From NCBI GenBank assembly GCA_028722305.1, contig JAQYHB010000021.1, positions 1 through 64,000 of the forward strand: a stretch of 64,000 bases of DNA, written 5' to 3'. Positions 46,396 through 55,043 of the stretch are shown piece by piece (within the stretch, counting starts at the first letter, position 1; each line of letters opens with the position of its first letter). A program made the translations under genes and the position numbers. The stretch comes from Spirochaetales bacterium. Lineage in GTDB: Bacteria; Spirochaetota; Spirochaetia; Sphaerochaetales; Sphaerochaetaceae. The notes beneath the pieces were generated by a model. It did not search any database and was not told the DNA's origin. It saw only the letters and a list, made by a program, of their open reading frames with translations.

Positions 46396-47226
46396 ATGCA
46401 AATCATCCTTTCTTCTGTGCTTGAGTATTGTGGAGGGGTAAAGCGCGCCCTGAGGATGGCAGATGAACAGCTGGACTCTGTCCACGACCGCCCAGTCTAT
46501 AGCCTCGGCCAGTTGATCCACAACAGGATTGTGACTGACGAGTTCGAGAGGCGTGGCCTTGTCGCCATCAATGCTCCCTCTGAAGGGGAAGGGGGCGTGC
46601 TGGTTGTCCGAGCCCATGGCATGACCGACGCGGAGAAAAGGGACTTCCTTTCGGCGGGATATTCCCTGGTAGACGCTACCTGTCCGGTGGTGACCCACAA
46701 CCTTGCCATGATCCGGAAATATGCGTCAGACCACCAGATCCTTGTCATCGGAGAGAAGGGACACGCCGAGGTCAATTCGATGATGGGAATCGACGGTTCT
46801 TGCCCGACTCTGCTTTCCTCGCCAGCAGACGTGGCTTTGCTTGCAAGGGATGGTTCCTATGCCGCCTTTGTCCAGACGACTTTCGAGGAGGAGAAGTGGC
46901 AGGAAATCCGGAAGGCGTTGCAACCTTTCCGGGTGGTGTTCGTCAACCATATCTGCCCCGCTTCGACAGCCCGCCGGAAGGCGGTGGTGGAGCTGGCGGA
47001 AAAGTGTGACGCCCTGATAGTCATCGGCGGCCGCAACTCGGCAAACACCCAAGCGCTCGCTTCCTTGGCCAAACAGACAAAACCCTCTCTGGTTGTCTAC
47101 TCCATCGAGAGCGAGAAGGACGTGACTGACGAGATGCGCCGTTTCCCGAGGGTGGGGCTTGCTACCGGAGCAAGCACCGCTCATGAAACCTTGCTCGCCG
47201 TACGTGATGCCCTGTCGCATTCTTGA
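46396..47226 (+). CDS. ispH: 4-hydroxy-3-methylbut-2-enyl diphosphate reductase
   Basis: A 276-residue enzyme, the last step of the MEP isoprenoid pathway. The three cysteines for the [4Fe-4S] cluster are C12 (YCGGVKRAL), C96 (VDATCPVV) and C187 (NHICPAS), and the substrate-binding histidines appear in QLIHN, VVRAHGM and EKGHAEV. It is slightly short but complete. It is divergent from the decayed ATPase. Its product, isopentenyl/dimethylallyl diphosphate, feeds the prenol pathway that the kinase pair at 38436-39925 might salvage. Confidence 0.95.
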   Translation: MQIILSSVLEYCGGVKRALRMADEQLDSVHDRPVYSLGQLIHNRIVTDEFERRGLVAINAPSEGEGGVLVVRAHGMTDAEKRDFLSAGYSLVDATCPVVTHNLAMIRKYASDHQILVIGEKGHAEVNSMMGIDGSCPTLLSSPADVALLARDGSYAAFVQTTFEEEKWQEIRKALQPFRVVFVNHICPASTARRKAVVELAEKCDALIVIGGRNSANTQALASLAKQTKPSLVVYSIESEKDVTDEMRRFPRVGLATGASTAHETLLAVRDALSHS

Positions 47227-47394: not shown

Positions 47395-47423
47395 TTGACT
47401 TGTCTCGCCGCGAGGTGTATCTT
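47395..47423 (+). promoter_or_regulatory. Promoter of the hydrogenase-like operon
   Basis: TTGACT (47395-47400) and TATCTT (47418-47423) with a 17-base spacer, 23 bases ahead of the first start codon. The ispH end to this gene is a 219-base gap with no other feature seen. Confidence 0.6.
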
Positions 47424-47445: not shown

Positions 47446-47706
47446 ATGGATAAGATTAAGGTAGAGCTCTGCATGGGAAGTTCTTGCTTCGCAAGGGGGA
47501 ACTCGCAGGCTCTGATGAACTTGGAGTCATATATTCAGGAACACCACCTGGAGGATGAGGTGGAGTTCGAGGGCCATTTGTGCCTGAACGCTTGCTCGGA
47601 CGGGCCGAACTTGTCGATTGACGGCGTGCGGTATCAGCATGTCGACAGCAACGTGGTCACCGACCTGCTTGAGAAGGCGCTTGCCAAGAGGAGAGGGGAG
47701 GCGTGA
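47446..47706 (+). CDS. Thioredoxin-like [2Fe-2S] ferredoxin (NuoE/HymA-like), first copy
   Basis: An 86-residue protein with the four-cysteine pattern C9-x4-C14 and C46-x3-C50 (VELCMGSSCFARG; HLCLNACSDGP), the fold of the NuoE C-terminal domain. The ribosome site is AAGGAAGG. Its stop overlaps the GTG start of the H-cluster/PAS protein (GTGA). A second copy of the same kind is at 50713-51003. It probably carries electrons to or from the neighbouring H-cluster protein. Confidence 0.88.
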   Translation: MDKIKVELCMGSSCFARGNSQALMNLESYIQEHHLEDEVEFEGHLCLNACSDGPNLSIDGVRYQHVDSNVVTDLLEKALAKRRGEA

Positions 47707-49523
47707 TTTACCCAATCTATACGGAGCTGACCGAGTGCAGGGATTGCTACAAGTGTGTACGTGGCTGCCCGGTCAAGGCGATCCAGGTGAACGAAGGCTC
47801 CGCGGTCGTGCTGAAGGACCGTTGCATTTTCTGCGGCAAGTGCGTGGGCGTGTGTCCTTCCCATGCGAAGAAGGTCCGCAATGACGTCGCTCGCGTCAAA
47901 CAGTTCATGAAGGACAAGAGCCGCGTGATTGTCGCGCTTGCCCCTTCGTTTGTCTCCGAGTTTCCTGGCAAGGGAGACCAGCTGCTGTGCGCGTTGATGC
48001 AGCTGGGGTTCTGCGGGGTCAGCGAGACCGCCATCGGGGCGGCGTTGGTCAACGCTTCTGTCGAGGAAATCACCAAGGCTCATGGTGGCAGTTGCCCCTA
48101 TATCTCCACCGCTTGTCCATCGGTGGTCCAGCTTGTGCACAAGTACTTTCCCAATGACGTGAAACGCCTTCTTCCGATTCCCTCGCCACTTCAGTGCCAG
48201 AGTGCCTACCTGAGGCATCTGTATGGGAACGACATCGGCATCGTCTTCATCGGTCCCTGCATCGCCAAGAAGGTCGAGGCCGACCAGAGCCCGGGGTATC
48301 CGGACTTTGCCTTGACCTTCGGCGAGCTTCGCCAGTGGCTGGGCGAGGAGGGCATCAGCCTGGACAAGGTCGAGGTGAAGGACGTGCCTCCCTTCATGCC
48401 CTGCAAGGCAGGGGCGAGTACCTTCTATCCGGTCGAAGGCGGCATGATCGCCAGTCTTTCCTGGGGCAGGGACCCGATGCAGACAAAGGGCGTGGCTCTT
48501 TCCGGAGCCGACCAGGTCCTTGGCGCCCTGCGCCATCTGGATGAGGGAGGGCCGGGAAGCAAGACCTTCCTTGAATTGCTGACCTGCGAAGGGGGTTGCG
48601 TCAACGGACCGGGGGCACGCAAGGATTGCTCGCCCGCCGACCGCAAGGGTGCGATGCAGCAGTTCAGCGCGGGACGGGTCGCCGATGGCAAGACCTTCGT
48701 CCCGCCCGAGGATTTCGTCCAGCTGCTGCTCAAGCAGGGCTATGGCGCTTTGGATTCAGTCGGCCGTGTCCATGAGGAAGAGATGGTCGACGTCGCGCCG
48801 GTCTACGAGACCCACAGCGAGGAGGAGATTCTCCGCGCGCTGAAGGAACTGGGCAAGAAGAGCAAGGCTGACGAGTTGAACTGTGGAGGTTGCGGCTACA
48901 ACAGCTGCAGGGAGATGGCGATTGCCTACTTGAACGGGATGGCCGAGCCGGAAATGTGCGTGACCAACATGCGCAAGGCGGCCCAGAGCAAGATGGACGT
49001 GTTGCTCCGTACCATTCCCATGGGTGTTGTCATCGTCGACGACTCGCTGAAGATCCACGACTGCAATGCCGGTTTCCTCGACTTGTTCGGCGAGCTTGGC
49101 TTCGAGCCGGACGAACAGGCGCTGAATATGATGAAGGGGCTTCCGTTGGAGCAGTTCGTCCCGTTCCATGAGAAGTTTGTCGAGCAGTTCGACGCGGAAG
49201 GGAAGACCAACCAATACCGCCTGCACTACAAGGACAAGTTCCTTCGGGTGACCTTCTTCACGGTCAGCAGCCAGCAGCTGGTTGGCGCGCTGTTCGAGGA
49301 TGTGACGAGCCCAACCGTGCGCAGGGAGACGGTGGTCAAGAAGGCGGAGGACGTCATCCAGAAAAGCCTGAACACCGTCCAGCAGATCGCCAGCTTGCTT
49401 GGTGAGAACGCCGCGGACACCGAGATCATGCTCAACAGCCTGATTGACGCGTTCAAGGTCCCTTCCACGCAGAATGATGACGCCAACGGTTTCTCGAAGG
49501 ATGACGGACAGGACCTGACATGA
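47703..49523 (+). CDS. H-cluster ([FeFe]-hydrogenase-like) sensory protein with PAS region (HydS/group C-like)
   Basis: A 606-residue protein, GTG start. Order: a two-cluster ferredoxin part (CRDCYKCVRGC and CIFCGKCVGVC, residues 12-52), the Fe-hydrogenase large-subunit domain with L1 ISTACPSVV, L2 GPCIAKKVEA and L3 TCEGGCVNGPG, then a Fer4-like cysteine patch NCGGCGYNSCREMA, and a PAS-like region from about residue 430 (LRTIPMGVVIVDDSLKIHDCN). L1 has alanine where catalytic enzymes have the proton-transfer cysteine (STAC versus TSCC). This is the signature of the sensory group C enzymes such as HydS of Thermotoga. The maturases HydEFG are not in the window. Confidence 0.85.
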   Translation: MIYPIYTELTECRDCYKCVRGCPVKAIQVNEGSAVVLKDRCIFCGKCVGVCPSHAKKVRNDVARVKQFMKDKSRVIVALAPSFVSEFPGKGDQLLCALMQLGFCGVSETAIGAALVNASVEEITKAHGGSCPYISTACPSVVQLVHKYFPNDVKRLLPIPSPLQCQSAYLRHLYGNDIGIVFIGPCIAKKVEADQSPGYPDFALTFGELRQWLGEEGISLDKVEVKDVPPFMPCKAGASTFYPVEGGMIASLSWGRDPMQTKGVALSGADQVLGALRHLDEGGPGSKTFLELLTCEGGCVNGPGARKDCSPADRKGAMQQFSAGRVADGKTFVPPEDFVQLLLKQGYGALDSVGRVHEEEMVDVAPVYETHSEEEILRALKELGKKSKADELNCGGCGYNSCREMAIAYLNGMAEPEMCVTNMRKAAQSKMDVLLRTIPMGVVIVDDSLKIHDCNAGFLDLFGELGFEPDEQALNMMKGLPLEQFVPFHEKFVEQFDAEGKTNQYRLHYKDKFLRVTFFTVSSQQLVGALFEDVTSPTVRRETVVKKAEDVIQKSLNTVQQIASLLGENAADTEIMLNSLIDAFKVPSTQNDDANGFSKDDGQDLT

Positions 49524-50713
49524 ACGATATCTTCATTGATGTTGACTATTATCAGATCTACAAGCACGACCAGAAGATTGGTGGCGACGTCTTCCTGCTT
49601 TCCAAAAATCCCGCGAGCCACCAGATTGTCGCTACGTTGAGCGATGGCCTGGGCAGCGGGGTGAAGGCCAACGTGCTCGCATCCTTGACCGCCCATATGG
49701 CCCACAAGCTTTCCTTTAGCGGCATGGACCTGAACAACAGTGCCAAGATCATCATGAACACGCTGCCGGTCTGCAAGGAACGGAAGATCAGCTATTCGAC
49801 CTTTACGATCGCCGACATCCATTTCCCGTCCATGAAGGACATCCAGGTCTCTCTCGTCGAGTACGACAACCCCAGCGCCTTGCGCTTTCACGGAAGCGAG
49901 GAGATAGCCTGGGACCGGGAGAACATCGACTTGAAGCGGCCGGGTGCTTTCAAGCAGGAGATTGTCAAGCGGTCCTCGTTCTCGATGGACTTTGGGGACC
50001 GTCTGATCATGTTCAGCGACGGGGTGACGCAGAGCGGCATGGGCAGTGCCCTTCCGCTAGGCTGGAGGCTGTCGGGAGTGCGGGCCTTCGCCAAGGAGCA
50101 GATTGCCAAGGATCCCGATATCGCCAGCCATGACTTGGCGAAATCGATTGTGCAGCACGCCTACAACCTTGACGGACTGTCGTCAAAGGATGATATAACG
50201 TGCGCGGTGGTCTACGTGCGCAAGCCGAGACGGACCCTGGTGGTGACCGGACCCCCGTTCAGCAAGGAGAGCGACGAGATCCTGGGAGAGAAGATCCGTT
50301 CCTTCCAAGGAAAGAAGATCGTCAGTGGCGGTACCACCGCCCTGATTGTCAGCCGGCTTTTCCACGCGCCGCTGAAAGTTGACATGACTCACTGGAGCAA
50401 GGATGTCCCCCCTATGAGTTCGATGGAGGGTGTTGACTTGGTGACTGAAGGTATGTTGACTTTGAGCAAGGTGGCGAAGGTGTTGGAACAGCGGACGCCG
50501 AGGGACCAGCTTCCCGACGACGCCGTCAAGCGGTTCGTACGCCTGTTGCTGGACAGCGACCAGGTTTCGTTCATCGTCGGCACGAAGATCAACGAGGCCC
50601 ACCAGGACCCGAACATTCCGGCGGAAATCGGAATCAGGCGGACGATGGTTGCCAGAATCCGCAAGGATTTGGAAGATATGTATTTGAAGGAAACCTCGTT
50701 GGAGTATATCTGA
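49520..50713 (+). CDS. SpoIIE-type (PP2C-like) serine/threonine phosphatase
   Basis: A 397-residue cytosolic phosphatase. The PPM/SpoIIE motifs are IVATLSDGLGSGVKANVLA (first aspartate), RLIMFSDGVTQSG and LSSKDDITCAVVYV (last aspartates). The roughly 130-residue C-terminal extension (from GPPFSKESDEILGEK) is a separate unrecognised domain. It overlaps the H-cluster/PAS gene by four bases. In known group C hydrogenase operons such phosphatases lie next to the sensor, so the H-cluster protein may control its activity (inference). No cognate anti-sigma or kinase partner is in the window. Confidence 0.88.
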   Translation: MNDIFIDVDYYQIYKHDQKIGGDVFLLSKNPASHQIVATLSDGLGSGVKANVLASLTAHMAHKLSFSGMDLNNSAKIIMNTLPVCKERKISYSTFTIADIHFPSMKDIQVSLVEYDNPSALRFHGSEEIAWDRENIDLKRPGAFKQEIVKRSSFSMDFGDRLIMFSDGVTQSGMGSALPLGWRLSGVRAFAKEQIAKDPDIASHDLAKSIVQHAYNLDGLSSKDDITCAVVYVRKPRRTLVVTGPPFSKESDEILGEKIRSFQGKKIVSGGTTALIVSRLFHAPLKVDMTHWSKDVPPMSSMEGVDLVTEGMLTLSKVAKVLEQRTPRDQLPDDAVKRFVRLLLDSDQVSFIVGTKINEAHQDPNIPAEIGIRRTMVARIRKDLEDMYLKETSLEYI

Positions 50714-51003
50714 TGGGGAAAGGAAAGATGGCTATGCAGAAAAAGAAAGTGGACGTGAGGATTTGCGTCGGGACTGCCTGTTTCGTGCAGGGGGGAGCGG
50801 ATTTGTTGTTGTACAATGACTTCCTCGACCCTGAGATTGTCGAGCACTGTGAGATTGAGGGTTCTTCCTGTCTGGACGTGTGCAAGCACGCCGCCGAAGG
50901 CGAGAACAACAAGCCCCCGTATGTTTCCATTGACGGCAAGGTATACGGCAACGTGACGCAAGAACGTTTCATCAAGTTGCTGTCGGAGGCCGTGAATGCT
51001 TGA
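50713..51003 (+). CDS. Thioredoxin-like [2Fe-2S] ferredoxin, second copy
   Basis: A 96-residue protein of the same family as 47446-47706, with cysteines C18-x4-C23 (RICVGTACFVQ) and C53-x3-C57 (SSCLDVCKHA), but with clearly different flanking sequence, so the two are diverged paralogues. It starts in the stop codon of the phosphatase gene (TGATG) and overlaps the following H-cluster gene by eight bases. It may be the electron partner of that second H-cluster protein. Confidence 0.88.
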   Translation: MGKGKMAMQKKKVDVRICVGTACFVQGGADLLLYNDFLDPEIVEHCEIEGSSCLDVCKHAAEGENNKPPYVSIDGKVYGNVTQERFIKLLSEAVNA

Positions 51004-52444
51004 AATCAACAACCAGTTCACGTTCATGAAACGCAGGCTTGAGACCGAGGTCATCAAGTCGTTCTTCAAGGGTACGCTTGCCGAGGATGTCGACAAGATT
51101 CCCATTGTCATCATTCCCAAGGACCGCGTTCCGAACCGCTGTTGCATCTACAAGGAACGGGCCATGCTCCGCTACCGCATCATGGCGATGATGGGCATCG
51201 ACATCGAGCGCTTCGATGACGAGATGAAACCCCTTTCCGCCTATGTGAAGGAGGTGATGGAGAAGGACCAGCCCGCCGCCCCGATGTTGACCACCATCAG
51301 CACCGGTTGCTACGGATGCCCTCCGGAACAGTACCGGGTCACCGACCAGTGTCGTGGCTGTTTCGCCCGTCCCTGCACTGCCAACTGCCCGCGTGACGCG
51401 ATTGATTTCACCACCGGCAAAGCCCACATCAACACGGACCGGTGCGTCCGTTGCGGCAAGTGCAAGGAAGTCTGCCCGTATACCGCAATCATCCATATCC
51501 CTGTCCCCTGCGAGGCTGCCTGTCCCGTCGGTTGCGTGAAGAAAAACGAGAAAGGGTACGTGGAGATCGACCACAAGCACTGCATTTCCTGCGGTCGTTG
51601 CGCCACTTCCTGCCCGTTCGGCGCCATCGTCGAGCGCAGTGGCTTGTTCCCTGTCCTGAAGAAGCTTGCCAGCGACCAGCCGGTTGTCGCCATGATCGCT
51701 CCCGCGATCGAGGGACAGTTCCCGGGTACATTGGCCCAGATTGTCGCCGCCTTGCTGAAGGTCGGGTTCTCCCGTGTCGTCGAGGTTTCCCGCGGGGCGG
51801 AGGTGACCAGTATCAACGAGGCCAAGGAGCTTGAGGAACGGAAGGCGAAGGGCGAGTGGATGACCACCAGCTGTTGTTCCGCCTACCTGGAAATCGGCAA
51901 CAAGCTGCTGCCCTACATGCGTGGCAGACGGAGTGACGCGAAGACTCCGATGGCATACACCGGTGAAATCGTCCGCAAGGAGAATCCCGGTGCCTTCTCG
52001 GTCTTCATCGGTCCCTGCTTCGCCAAGAAGATCGAGGCAGCTAGGGATCCAAACGTTGACGGCGTGATCACCTTCAGCGAGCTTGCGGCCATCTTCATGG
52101 CTAAGGACATCGATGTCCGCGAGATGCAGCCGGCAGATTTGGGCGACGACAAGACGTTCAGCGACTGTCGAGGATTCGCCGTTTCCAATGGTGTCATCTC
52201 CAGCGTCATGCGCCGGTACCATGGCCCCGAGCCGAAGGTGATGGACCTCAACGGTGTGGACAAGAAGGTCTACACATTGATGAAGGTCTGGGAAAAGCGC
52301 AAGCCGGATGCCGACATCATCGAGGTGATGTGCTGCGAGGGCGGCTGTATCGGTGGTCCTGGCTGTATCGTCAAGCCGCAGGTCGCCCTTAGGCTGCGTG
52401 GCGGCAACAAGGCCGCGACTCCGGTCAAGTCGATGACGAAATGA
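50996..52444 (+). CDS. [FeFe]-hydrogenase-like protein, group B1/B3 type
   Basis: A 482-residue protein. The N-terminal region with IIPKDRVPNRCCIYKERAMLRYRIMA is the hallmark of the group B1/B3 subfamily, followed by three ferredoxin-type cysteine clusters (CYGCPPEQY, CRGCFARPCTANCP, CVRCGKCKEVCP and CISCGRCATSCP). The H-cluster motifs are L1 MTTSCCSAYL (both cysteines present), L2 GPCFAKKIEA and L3 MCCEGGCIGGPG. Unlike its upstream relative it keeps the proton-transfer cysteine and might be catalytically active. Group B physiology is largely unknown. The gene sits between the second [2Fe-2S] gene and the GAF gene, overlapping both. Confidence 0.88.
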   Translation: MLEINNQFTFMKRRLETEVIKSFFKGTLAEDVDKIPIVIIPKDRVPNRCCIYKERAMLRYRIMAMMGIDIERFDDEMKPLSAYVKEVMEKDQPAAPMLTTISTGCYGCPPEQYRVTDQCRGCFARPCTANCPRDAIDFTTGKAHINTDRCVRCGKCKEVCPYTAIIHIPVPCEAACPVGCVKKNEKGYVEIDHKHCISCGRCATSCPFGAIVERSGLFPVLKKLASDQPVVAMIAPAIEGQFPGTLAQIVAALLKVGFSRVVEVSRGAEVTSINEAKELEERKAKGEWMTTSCCSAYLEIGNKLLPYMRGRRSDAKTPMAYTGEIVRKENPGAFSVFIGPCFAKKIEAARDPNVDGVITFSELAAIFMAKDIDVREMQPADLGDDKTFSDCRGFAVSNGVISSVMRRYHGPEPKVMDLNGVDKKVYTLMKVWEKRKPDADIIEVMCCEGGCIGGPGCIVKPQVALRLRGGNKAATPVKSMTK

Positions 52445-52902
52445 CCGATCGTGACTCGTTTATCGCAGGTCTCTCTTCCTTGCTTTCGGGCGGGGAGGGA
52501 GACCCGTTTCGTATGATGACGGTGCTGGCCAACGCCAGCGCCTACCTTTTCGAGAGGTTGCCAGACGTCAGTTGGGCAGGCTTCTACCTGCGCAGGGGAG
52601 GATACCTCTATCTGGGTCCGTTTCAAGGCAAGGTCGCCTGCACGAAAATCGCCTTGGGCAAGGGTGTCTGCGGAACAGCGGCCATCCAGGAGCGGACGAT
52701 CGTGGTGCCTGACGTACACCAGTTTCCCGGCCACATCGCCTGCGACTCGGCCAGCCGGAGCGAGATTGTCGTCCCCCTGCTGGTGGATGGAACCCTGATC
52801 GGGGTCCTGGATCTGGACTCGACCAGCCTTGGCCGCTTCACTGGAGAGGATGCCTCTCTGCTGGAAAAGGCGGCCCAGGTGGTCACCGCCCATCTTTCCT
52901 GA
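52441..52902 (+). CDS. Free methionine-(R)-sulfoxide reductase (GAF domain, fRMsr)
   Basis: A 153-residue GAF protein with the three catalytic cysteines in the right spacing: C67 (KVACTKI), C77 (GKGVCGTA) and C101 (HIACDSASRSEIV), 10 and 24 residues apart as in E. coli YebR. The typical DVHQFPGHIACD and VLDLDS segments are present. It reduces free methionine-R-sulfoxide with thioredoxin. It overlaps the hydrogenase-like gene by four bases, so its expression is tied to the redox-sensing operon, consistent with oxidative stress. Confidence 0.93.
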   Translation: MTDRDSFIAGLSSLLSGGEGDPFRMMTVLANASAYLFERLPDVSWAGFYLRRGGYLYLGPFQGKVACTKIALGKGVCGTAAIQERTIVVPDVHQFPGHIACDSASRSEIVVPLLVDGTLIGVLDLDSTSLGRFTGEDASLLEKAAQVVTAHLS

Positions 52903-53264: not shown

Positions 53265-55043
53265 ATGGATAAAGAAGCGTATTTGCAGGTATACCGCCAT
53301 TCATTGTCCCACGTGATGGCGAAGGCCGTGATGGAGCTTTTCGGACGCGATCACGTCCAAATTGCCATCGGACCCCAGATTGATGATGGATTCTACTATG
53401 ATTTCCAGCTACCCCGTCCTGTGACCACCGATGACTTCAAGGCCATCGAGGACAAGATGCACGAGATTCTCAAGCGCAAGGAGAACTGGACGCGCAAGGT
53501 CGTCACCAAGGATGAGGCGCTGAAGATTTTCGCCGACCAGAAATACAAGGTCGAGCTGATCAAGGACCTTCCTGCGGACGAGACGATTTCCGTCTACTAT
53601 ACGGGGGACGATTTCGTCGACCTTTGCAGGGGACCGCATGTCTCCAACAGCCAGGAACTGCTCGGTGCCGCTTTCAAGATCAAGAGCGTTGCCGGCGCCT
53701 ACTGGAGGGGCGATGAGAAGAACGACCAGTTGCAGAGGATCTACTGCTACGCCTTCCCTGACCAGAAACAGCTGAAGGACCATCTGAACCTTATCCGCGA
53801 GGCTATGGAGCGCGACCACAAGAAGATCGGGCCCGAGCTCGGCATCTTCATGTTTGACGAGACCGCTCCGGGCATGCCCTATTTCCTGCCCCGCGGCCTG
53901 AAGAGCTACAACGCCCTGCTGGACTTCTGGAGACGCATCCACGAGCAGCACGGATATAACGAGATTTCCGCTCCAATCCTCAACTCCAAGCAGCTGTGGG
54001 AGACCAGCGGCCACTGGGCTCACTACAAGGACAACATGTTCCTGGTCGAGGAGGACAAGAACAACATCTACGGCCTGAAGCCGATGAACTGCCCCAACGC
54101 GATCAAGGTCTACATGCGCTCGCTGCGCTCGTACAAGGAGTTGCCGCTTCGGATCAGCCAGGTCGACCCGGTGCATCGAAAGGAGAAGAGCGGTACCCTC
54201 AACGGCCTGTTCCGCGTGCAGATGTTCCATCAGGACGATGCCCACATCCTGCTGACCGAGGAGCAGATTGGTGACGAGATCAGCGACATCATGGATATCG
54301 CCGAGCAGATCTACGGCACGTTCGGCCTGACCTACAAGGCGGAGCTTTCCACCAGACCTGCCGACTACATGGGCGACATCAAGGTCTGGGACCAGGCGGA
54401 GAAGGACCTGAAGGCGATTCTCGCCAAGAAGTACGGCGAGGGCAACTTCGAGATCAACGAGGGTGATGGCGCCTTCTATGGGCCGAAGATCGATTTGAAG
54501 ATGCGCGACTGCCTCGGCCGCGAGTGGCAGATGGGCACGATCCAGCTGGACTTCCAGCTTCCGCTGAACTTCAACATGAAGTACGTGGCCAAGGATGGAA
54601 GCCAGAAGATGCCGGTCATGATCCACCGCGCCATCTTCGGGTCCCTGGAGCGTTTCATCGGCATCCTGATCGAGAACTTCAAGGGAGATTTCCCCTTCTG
54701 GCTCAACCCGCTGCAGGTTGGCCTGGTGCCGATCCGTCCGGAGCACAACGCCTACGCCAAGGAGGTCTATGACCTGCTGTGGAAGAACCGCATCCGTGTC
54801 GAGGCCGATTACACCGACCGCAACATGAAGGAGAAGATCAAGCAGTTCAAGACGATGAAGGACCCGTATACGGTCGTCATCGGCGACCAGGAGGTGCAGA
54901 ACCGCACCGTCAGCGTCAACATCCGTGGTTCGCAGAAGCGCATGCAGAACCTGCCGCTGGATACCTTCCTCAAGATCTGCAAGAAGATGAACGAGGAGTA
55001 TTCGCTCAACCTGATCGACGAGGTTCCTGCGGACTTGCAGTAA
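53265..55043 (+). CDS. thrS: Threonyl-tRNA synthetase lacking the TGS domain
   Basis: A 592-residue class II synthetase with AAGGAG before the ATG. It begins directly with the editing domain (YRHSLSHVMAKAVMELFG, then DLCRGPHVSN), lacking the roughly 60-residue N-terminal TGS domain of E. coli ThrS. The catalytic core is complete: LPRGLKSYNALLDFWR, MNCPNAIKVY (zinc cysteine), DPVHRKEKSGTLNGLFRVQMFHQDDAHI and motif 3 HRAIFGSLERFIGILIEN, then the anticodon domain. The T-box immediately upstream ties expression to threonine supply. Confidence 0.97.
   Translation: MDKEAYLQVYRHSLSHVMAKAVMELFGRDHVQIAIGPQIDDGFYYDFQLPRPVTTDDFKAIEDKMHEILKRKENWTRKVVTKDEALKIFADQKYKVELIKDLPADETISVYYTGDDFVDLCRGPHVSNSQELLGAAFKIKSVAGAYWRGDEKNDQLQRIYCYAFPDQKQLKDHLNLIREAMERDHKKIGPELGIFMFDETAPGMPYFLPRGLKSYNALLDFWRRIHEQHGYNEISAPILNSKQLWETSGHWAHYKDNMFLVEEDKNNIYGLKPMNCPNAIKVYMRSLRSYKELPLRISQVDPVHRKEKSGTLNGLFRVQMFHQDDAHILLTEEQIGDEISDIMDIAEQIYGTFGLTYKAELSTRPADYMGDIKVWDQAEKDLKAILAKKYGEGNFEINEGDGAFYGPKIDLKMRDCLGREWQMGTIQLDFQLPLNFNMKYVAKDGSQKMPVMIHRAIFGSLERFIGILIENFKGDFPFWLNPLQVGLVPIRPEHNAYAKEVYDLLWKNRIRVEADYTDRNMKEKIKQFKTMKDPYTVVIGDQEVQNRTVSVNIRGSQKRMQNLPLDTFLKICKKMNEEYSLNLIDEVPADLQ

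Follow-up and report, generated by a model that had tools for sequence, protein, structure and literature searches.

A spirochaete form of the hfs/hydS-hydA2 operon and a gap in H-cluster maturase genes

Does a run of six overlapping genes in a rumen spirochaete link an H-cluster sensor to protein dephosphorylation, is its pairing of that sensor with a second, group B hydrogenase new, and does the genome encode the enzymes that would build the H-cluster? The genes lie in a 64,000-nucleotide stretch (the window; contig JAQYHB010000021.1, GCA_028722305.1) of a 2.71-Mb draft genome in 56 contigs that is 95% complete. The operon is a spirochaete form of the already known hfs/hydS-hydA2 operon. What was not expected is that maturases are missing, and this deserves more attention than the operon: the gap concerns a whole family, includes one-contig genomes and coincides with strongly conserved ligands, making the question testable.

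Gene content of the operon

All six genes are on the forward strand, span positions 47446-52902 and overlap successively by 4, 4, 1, 8 and 4 bases, in agreement with a sequence-only reading of this DNA, whose gene assignments are all supported by Pfam and NCBIfam. In gene order, the Pfam domains are 2Fe-2S_thioredx; Fe_hyd_lg_C, FeS and PAS_8; SpoIIE; 2Fe-2S_thioredx; Fe_hyd_lg_C and Fer4; and GAF. A weak promoter-like site lies 5' of the operon (47395-47423, forward strand; TTGACT-17-TATCTT, 9/12 consensus), but this match is no better than chance, with 2 such sites observed in the region versus 2.6 expected from shuffling.

The first gene (47446-47706; 86 aa, ATG start) encodes a thioredoxin-like [2Fe-2S] ferredoxin, the partner of HydS (PF01257, 35.1 bits; cut-off, 24.8), with conserved CX4C and CX3C motifs whose four cysteines are invariant in 12 aligned genomes. 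HydS (47703-49523; 606 aa, GTG start) is a PAS-bearing H-cluster protein that scores 129 bits on PF02906, 35 bits on FeS and 23.8 bits on PAS_8 (residues 434-489; cut-off, 21.8), with Fer4_10 also matched. Two N-terminal [4Fe-4S] motifs (Cys12/15/18/22 and Cys41/44/47/51) precede the H-cluster domain, and a C-terminal CX2CX4CX16C motif (Cys394/397/402/419) precedes the PAS domain, both being features of group C (M2f/HydS) proteins; these cysteines are invariant in an alignment of relatives, as are those at residues 138, 186, 295 and 299. All cluster cysteines and the GPCxAKK lysine are retained, and in the STAC motif Ala137 precedes the ligand Cys138, so that alanine replaces the proton-transfer cysteine of group A enzymes (Cys299 in CpI numbering). 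The C-terminal CX2CX4CX16C motif, the PAS domain and the lack of a proton-transfer cysteine are features of groups C and D (PMC8163306). On the NCBIfam model for group B1 (TIGR04105), HydS reaches just 164 bits against a cut-off of 450, and in a tree it forms one clade with Ruminococcus albus HydS (support 97/95). The hallmark of HydDB group C3, the 'phosphatase-linked (putative)' [FeFe]-hydrogenases (PMC5037454), is a neighbouring Ser/Thr phosphatase gene, and here as there an H-cluster and PAS sensor adjoins one, the PP2C gene overlapping hydS by 4 bases. HydS is thus predicted to be of group C3 type, an assignment made from architecture, the neighbouring phosphatase gene and the clade shared with R. 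albus HydS.

The third gene (49520-50713; 397 aa) encodes a SpoIIE/RsbU-type PP2C Ser/Thr phosphatase (PF07228, 45.8 bits) in which the metal-binding residues D23, D42, D167, D224 and D225 are all invariant. Its AF2 model (pLDDT 88) resembles the SpoIIE and RsbU phosphatase domains (Foldseek, 5mqh, 1.7e-13). The earlier label of SpoIIE-type phosphatase holds for the PP2C fold, which is all that the protein has in common with SpoIIE; SpoIIE itself was ruled out (TIGR02865, 36.7 bits; cut-off, 490.8). That label also passed over an additional, confidently modelled C-terminal beta/alpha domain of ~160 aa (approximately residues 238-397; window 50231-50713), which has 25 invariant columns in 15 sequences and no matching Pfam family. 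The phosphatases of R. albus and Monoglobus also bear this domain, which therefore belongs to phosphatases of this type in general and could plausibly serve in docking or regulation. A Foldseek search with the domain gave no match at E <= 0.001, and by VIA the best matches were FhcB (Z 9.8) and NuoG (Z 9.1), with FwdB also marginal; the layout appears Rossmann-like, and the matches are too weak to name the fold. STAS proteins are the usual substrates of SpoIIE-type phosphatases. Profile searches of the window genome found none at E <= 0.001, leaving no candidate phosphatase target and ruling out a classic SpoIIAA-type one, and HATPase_c_2 gave two weak matches, both distant from the operon. 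No phosphatase relatives were found in the viral contigs searched.

A second thioredoxin-like [2Fe-2S] ferredoxin (50713-51003; 96 aa) scores 25.7 bits on PF01257 (cut-off, 24.8) and conserves Cys18/23/53/57. It is followed by a group B monomeric [FeFe] hydrogenase of HfsD/HydA2 type (50996-52444; 482 aa), which lies above the curated group B1 cut-off (TIGR04105, 476 bits; cut-off, 450), keeps the TTSCC, GPCxAKK and CCEGGC motifs and, in the same tree as HydS, forms one clade with R. albus HydA2 (support 93/93). The last gene (52441-52902; 153 aa) encodes a GAF-domain free methionine-R-sulfoxide reductase (PF01590, 51 bits) with Cys67, Cys77 and Cys101, the three-cysteine spacing of such reductases, as in the E. 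coli enzyme.

Known counterparts and conservation among relatives

The sequence-only reading had presented the coupling of two H-cluster proteins, one of sensor type and one of group B, as new, a claim overturned by modules in R. albus, Monoglobus and Thermoanaerobacterium. On plasmid pRUMAL01 of R. albus 7 (NC_014824.1), the locus order is rex-adhE-phosphotransferase-[2Fe-2S]-[2Fe-2S]-HydS-PP2C-HydA2, matching the window operon in the order of HydS, SpoIIE-type PP2C and group B hydrogenase, in having two [2Fe-2S] genes and in an overlap of hydS with the phosphatase gene, here of 8 bases. R. albus HydA2 and its Monoglobus counterpart score 577 and 562 bits on the group B1 model, both above the cut-off; elsewhere the R. 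albus enzyme has been classed as A1 (PMC6776011). The R. albus and window proteins are 29-36% identical, and the two phosphatases align over their full length, C-terminal domain included. In R. albus, both [2Fe-2S] genes lie 5' of hydS whereas one lies between the phosphatase and group B genes in the window, and rex, adhE and the phosphotransferase gene stand ahead of a module that has no methionine-sulfoxide reductase; the window operon has the reductase and no adhE. What sets the spirochaete form apart is thus that one [2Fe-2S] gene separates the phosphatase gene from that of the group B enzyme, and that a sulfoxide reductase is added.

In Thermoanaerobacterium saccharolyticum, the hfsABCD operon encodes a PAS-bearing FeFe protein (HfsB), a serine phosphatase (HfsC) and a HydA2-like FeFe hydrogenase (HfsD) (PMC11837493, PMC5707799). 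The likeness rests on these published descriptions, which give a single extra gene, hfsA, in place of two [2Fe-2S] genes and mention no free methionine-R-sulfoxide reductase. Among spirochaetes, group A1/B, A3, C1 and C3 enzymes were reported for Rectinema cohabitans in 2018 (PMC6052044), a likeness to the window in the presence of group B and C3 enzymes. The hallmark of the hfs/hydS-hydA2 operon, HydS, PP2C and a second FeFe hydrogenase together, is present here with genes orthologous to those of R. albus. The analysis thus shows directly what the genes are, that their metal ligands and phosphatase residues are intact, that their order is conserved and that they are orthologous to the R. albus module, and the operon adds rumen spirochaetes to the bacteria with this known module of fermentation control.

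Of 41 related genomes, 17 keep the full order [2Fe-2S], HydS, PP2C, [2Fe-2S], group B; the five-gene core is divided between two loci in one further relative (G014) and partly visible at a contig end in another (G015). This recurrence, together with dN/dS of 0.02-0.18 across the six operon genes when the window genome is compared with that of its sister, rules out a chance gene arrangement and bears out the expectation that co-occurrence in relatives would show the pairing not to be incidental. Sensor, phosphatase, group B enzyme and both [2Fe-2S] proteins have been inherited together across a class, and the phosphatase gene adjoins hydS in all mappable HydS-bearing genomes (19/19). Of the 17 core-bearing relatives, 10, all in the window's own family, have the methionine-sulfoxide reductase gene at the end of the operon. 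Upstream ispH (window 46396-47226) and downstream thrS (53265-55043) are kept in most family members, indicating that the position of the locus is old. A near-identical locus occurs in 'uncultured Spirochaetaceae bacterium RUG023' (HydS identity, 97%), and this was the sole match in a HydS-only scan of the genome collection.

The maturase gap

In the bacterial H-clusters characterised so far, CO and CN- are products of HydG. The genome criterion for a functional [FeFe]-hydrogenase is the joint presence of HydE, HydF and HydG, whose absence, on the sequence-only reading, would argue against a functional H-cluster. The outcome is divided: the window genome encodes three H-cluster proteins and HydF (G000:C9:47825-48976, loci L004/L070; 536 bits), and profile searches of this 95%-complete draft found neither HydE nor HydG. 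It also encodes a HydABC-type group A hydrogenase (L077:6857-12677, contig G000:C2) near a rex-like regulator gene. Among 81 family genomes, each at least 90% complete, PF02906 proteins (E <= 1e-25) are present in all 81 and HydG in 17, so that 64 have H-cluster proteins without HydG. No HydG was found in the three drafts of the window's genus or in seven one-contig genomes (G004, G023, G024, G082, G084, G091 and G093); in two of the latter, G004 and G024, the operon is complete and none of HydE, HydF or HydG scores above its own cut-off. A 2011 paper remarked on 'a few species' whose hydrogenase genes are unaccompanied by maturase genes (PMC3226654); we found no paper on the gap in this spirochaete family in a literature search that was thin on subscription journals.

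Either a complete H-cluster is made by another route, or the proteins operate without a complete one. We regard it as possible, if rather doubtful, that in most of the family H-cluster proteins of groups A, B and C are conserved and set out as an H2-responsive operon in genomes that lack HydG and mostly have neither HydE nor HydF, with CO and CN- supplied by an undescribed route or with a non-standard cluster. The hydrogenases have not decayed since maturases were lost: dN/dS of ~0.06 for HydS, phosphatase and group B enzyme between the one-contig, HydG-less G004 and G024, a rough value with synonymous sites near saturation, points to purifying selection, and the cluster ligands are intact.

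If the second branch applied, the H-cluster proteins of this lineage would hold [4Fe-4S] only, or a non-standard diiron site without full CO/CN-, and the operon would sense ferredoxin redox state, not H2. HydG in 17 versus PF02906 in 81 of the 81 family genomes, and the full operon of G004 and G024 without any maturase, point in this direction. Yet the diiron-site ligands, including the bridging cysteine and the lysine by which known enzymes hold a cyanide, are conserved in HydG-less genomes. In the window genome, the group A enzyme is fully canonical (TSCCP, MPCTAK and ACRGGC) and HydF is kept in the window genus, and we judge this explanation unlikely.

Less likely again is that a normal H-cluster is made with HydE and HydG encoded in the unassembled 5% of the draft. 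An assembly of 56 contigs at 95% completeness leaves room for them, HydF is present at 536 bits and a congener has a frameshifted HydE, but neither the three drafts of the genus nor the seven one-contig relatives have HydG. With scores of 420-940 bits, HydG is detected by the same search in 17 relatives, which makes a search artefact unlikely, though a highly divergent maturase may have escaped detection. In the congener (G001), the locus with the frameshifted HydE (L080:1188-9993, contig G001:C4) has HydF read into an ammonia-lyase frame and adjoins two NifH-like genes and NifDK-like genes. Such nitrogenase-like genes beside HydE/HydF, a possible alternative route, occur at this one locus only.

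A putative phosphatase switch

On a modest balance of probability, the operon encodes a hydrogen- or redox-responsive phosphatase switch together with a co-expressed ferredoxin-type hydrogenase. The H-domain of HydS would read H2 or the redox state of ferredoxin, supplied by its own [2Fe-2S] protein, and the C-terminal [4Fe-4S]/PAS segment would relay its state to the PP2C phosphatase encoded next to it. The phosphatase in turn may alter the phosphorylation of some Ser/Thr-phosphorylated fermentation regulator. The group B enzyme and the second [2Fe-2S] protein would act as a ferredoxin-linked hydrogenase passing electrons to protons or back, and the terminal methionine-sulfoxide reductase would be an accessory oxidative-repair gene of the window's family. 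The circuit from H-cluster to dephosphorylation suggested by the sequence-only reading is right in joining a sensor to a phosphatase; the signalling itself we infer from related systems, as we do its direction, the HydS-phosphatase contact, the substrate and the completeness of the H-cluster.

Those systems fit a regulatory role. The R. albus gene cluster is 111-fold lower in co-culture, at low H2 (PMC6776011). The hfsABCD operon has been deleted gene by gene (PMC5707799, PMC11837493): loss of hfsA or hfsB raised ethanol yield and adhE transcripts, and loss of hfsC or hfsD moved flux to lactate (PMC5707799). Deletion of hfsB alone gave higher hydrogenase activity and altered adhE transcripts (PMC5707799), which makes HfsB a regulator. 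That the operon is instead chiefly metabolic, with HydS and the group B enzyme as electron-transfer or hydrogenase subunits alongside two [2Fe-2S] proteins and a phosphatase with an unrelated target, is improbable: the two [2Fe-2S] partners, two FeS-rich enzymes and the reduced H2 production and hydrogenase activity after deletion of the whole hfs operon in Thermoanaerobacterium (PMC5707799) are consistent with it, but the effects of losing hfsB alone, the alanine in place of the proton-transfer cysteine, the PAS domain of HydS and the phosphatase next to HydS in 19 of 19 mapped genomes argue against it.

Several points count against the phosphatase-switch reading. Searches of the window genome turned up neither HydE nor HydG, so the H-cluster may be incomplete; the lack of any STAS match at E <= 0.001 leaves the phosphatase without a candidate target; the window operon has no adhE, unlike that of R. 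albus; and in the related group D protein TamHydS the C-terminal [4Fe-4S] cluster is unresponsive to H2 (PMC13104023), which argues against that cluster as the relay and suggests that the relay may be conformational.

A further H-cluster-like protein of 432-445 aa is encoded in G004 (L078:8297-10053) and at loci L076, L073 and L079. It has two 4Fe-4S motifs, an H-domain and a C-terminal FeS motif without PAS, and forms a separate clade (support 100/99). In G004, its gene adjoins one resembling an RsbW-type ATPase.
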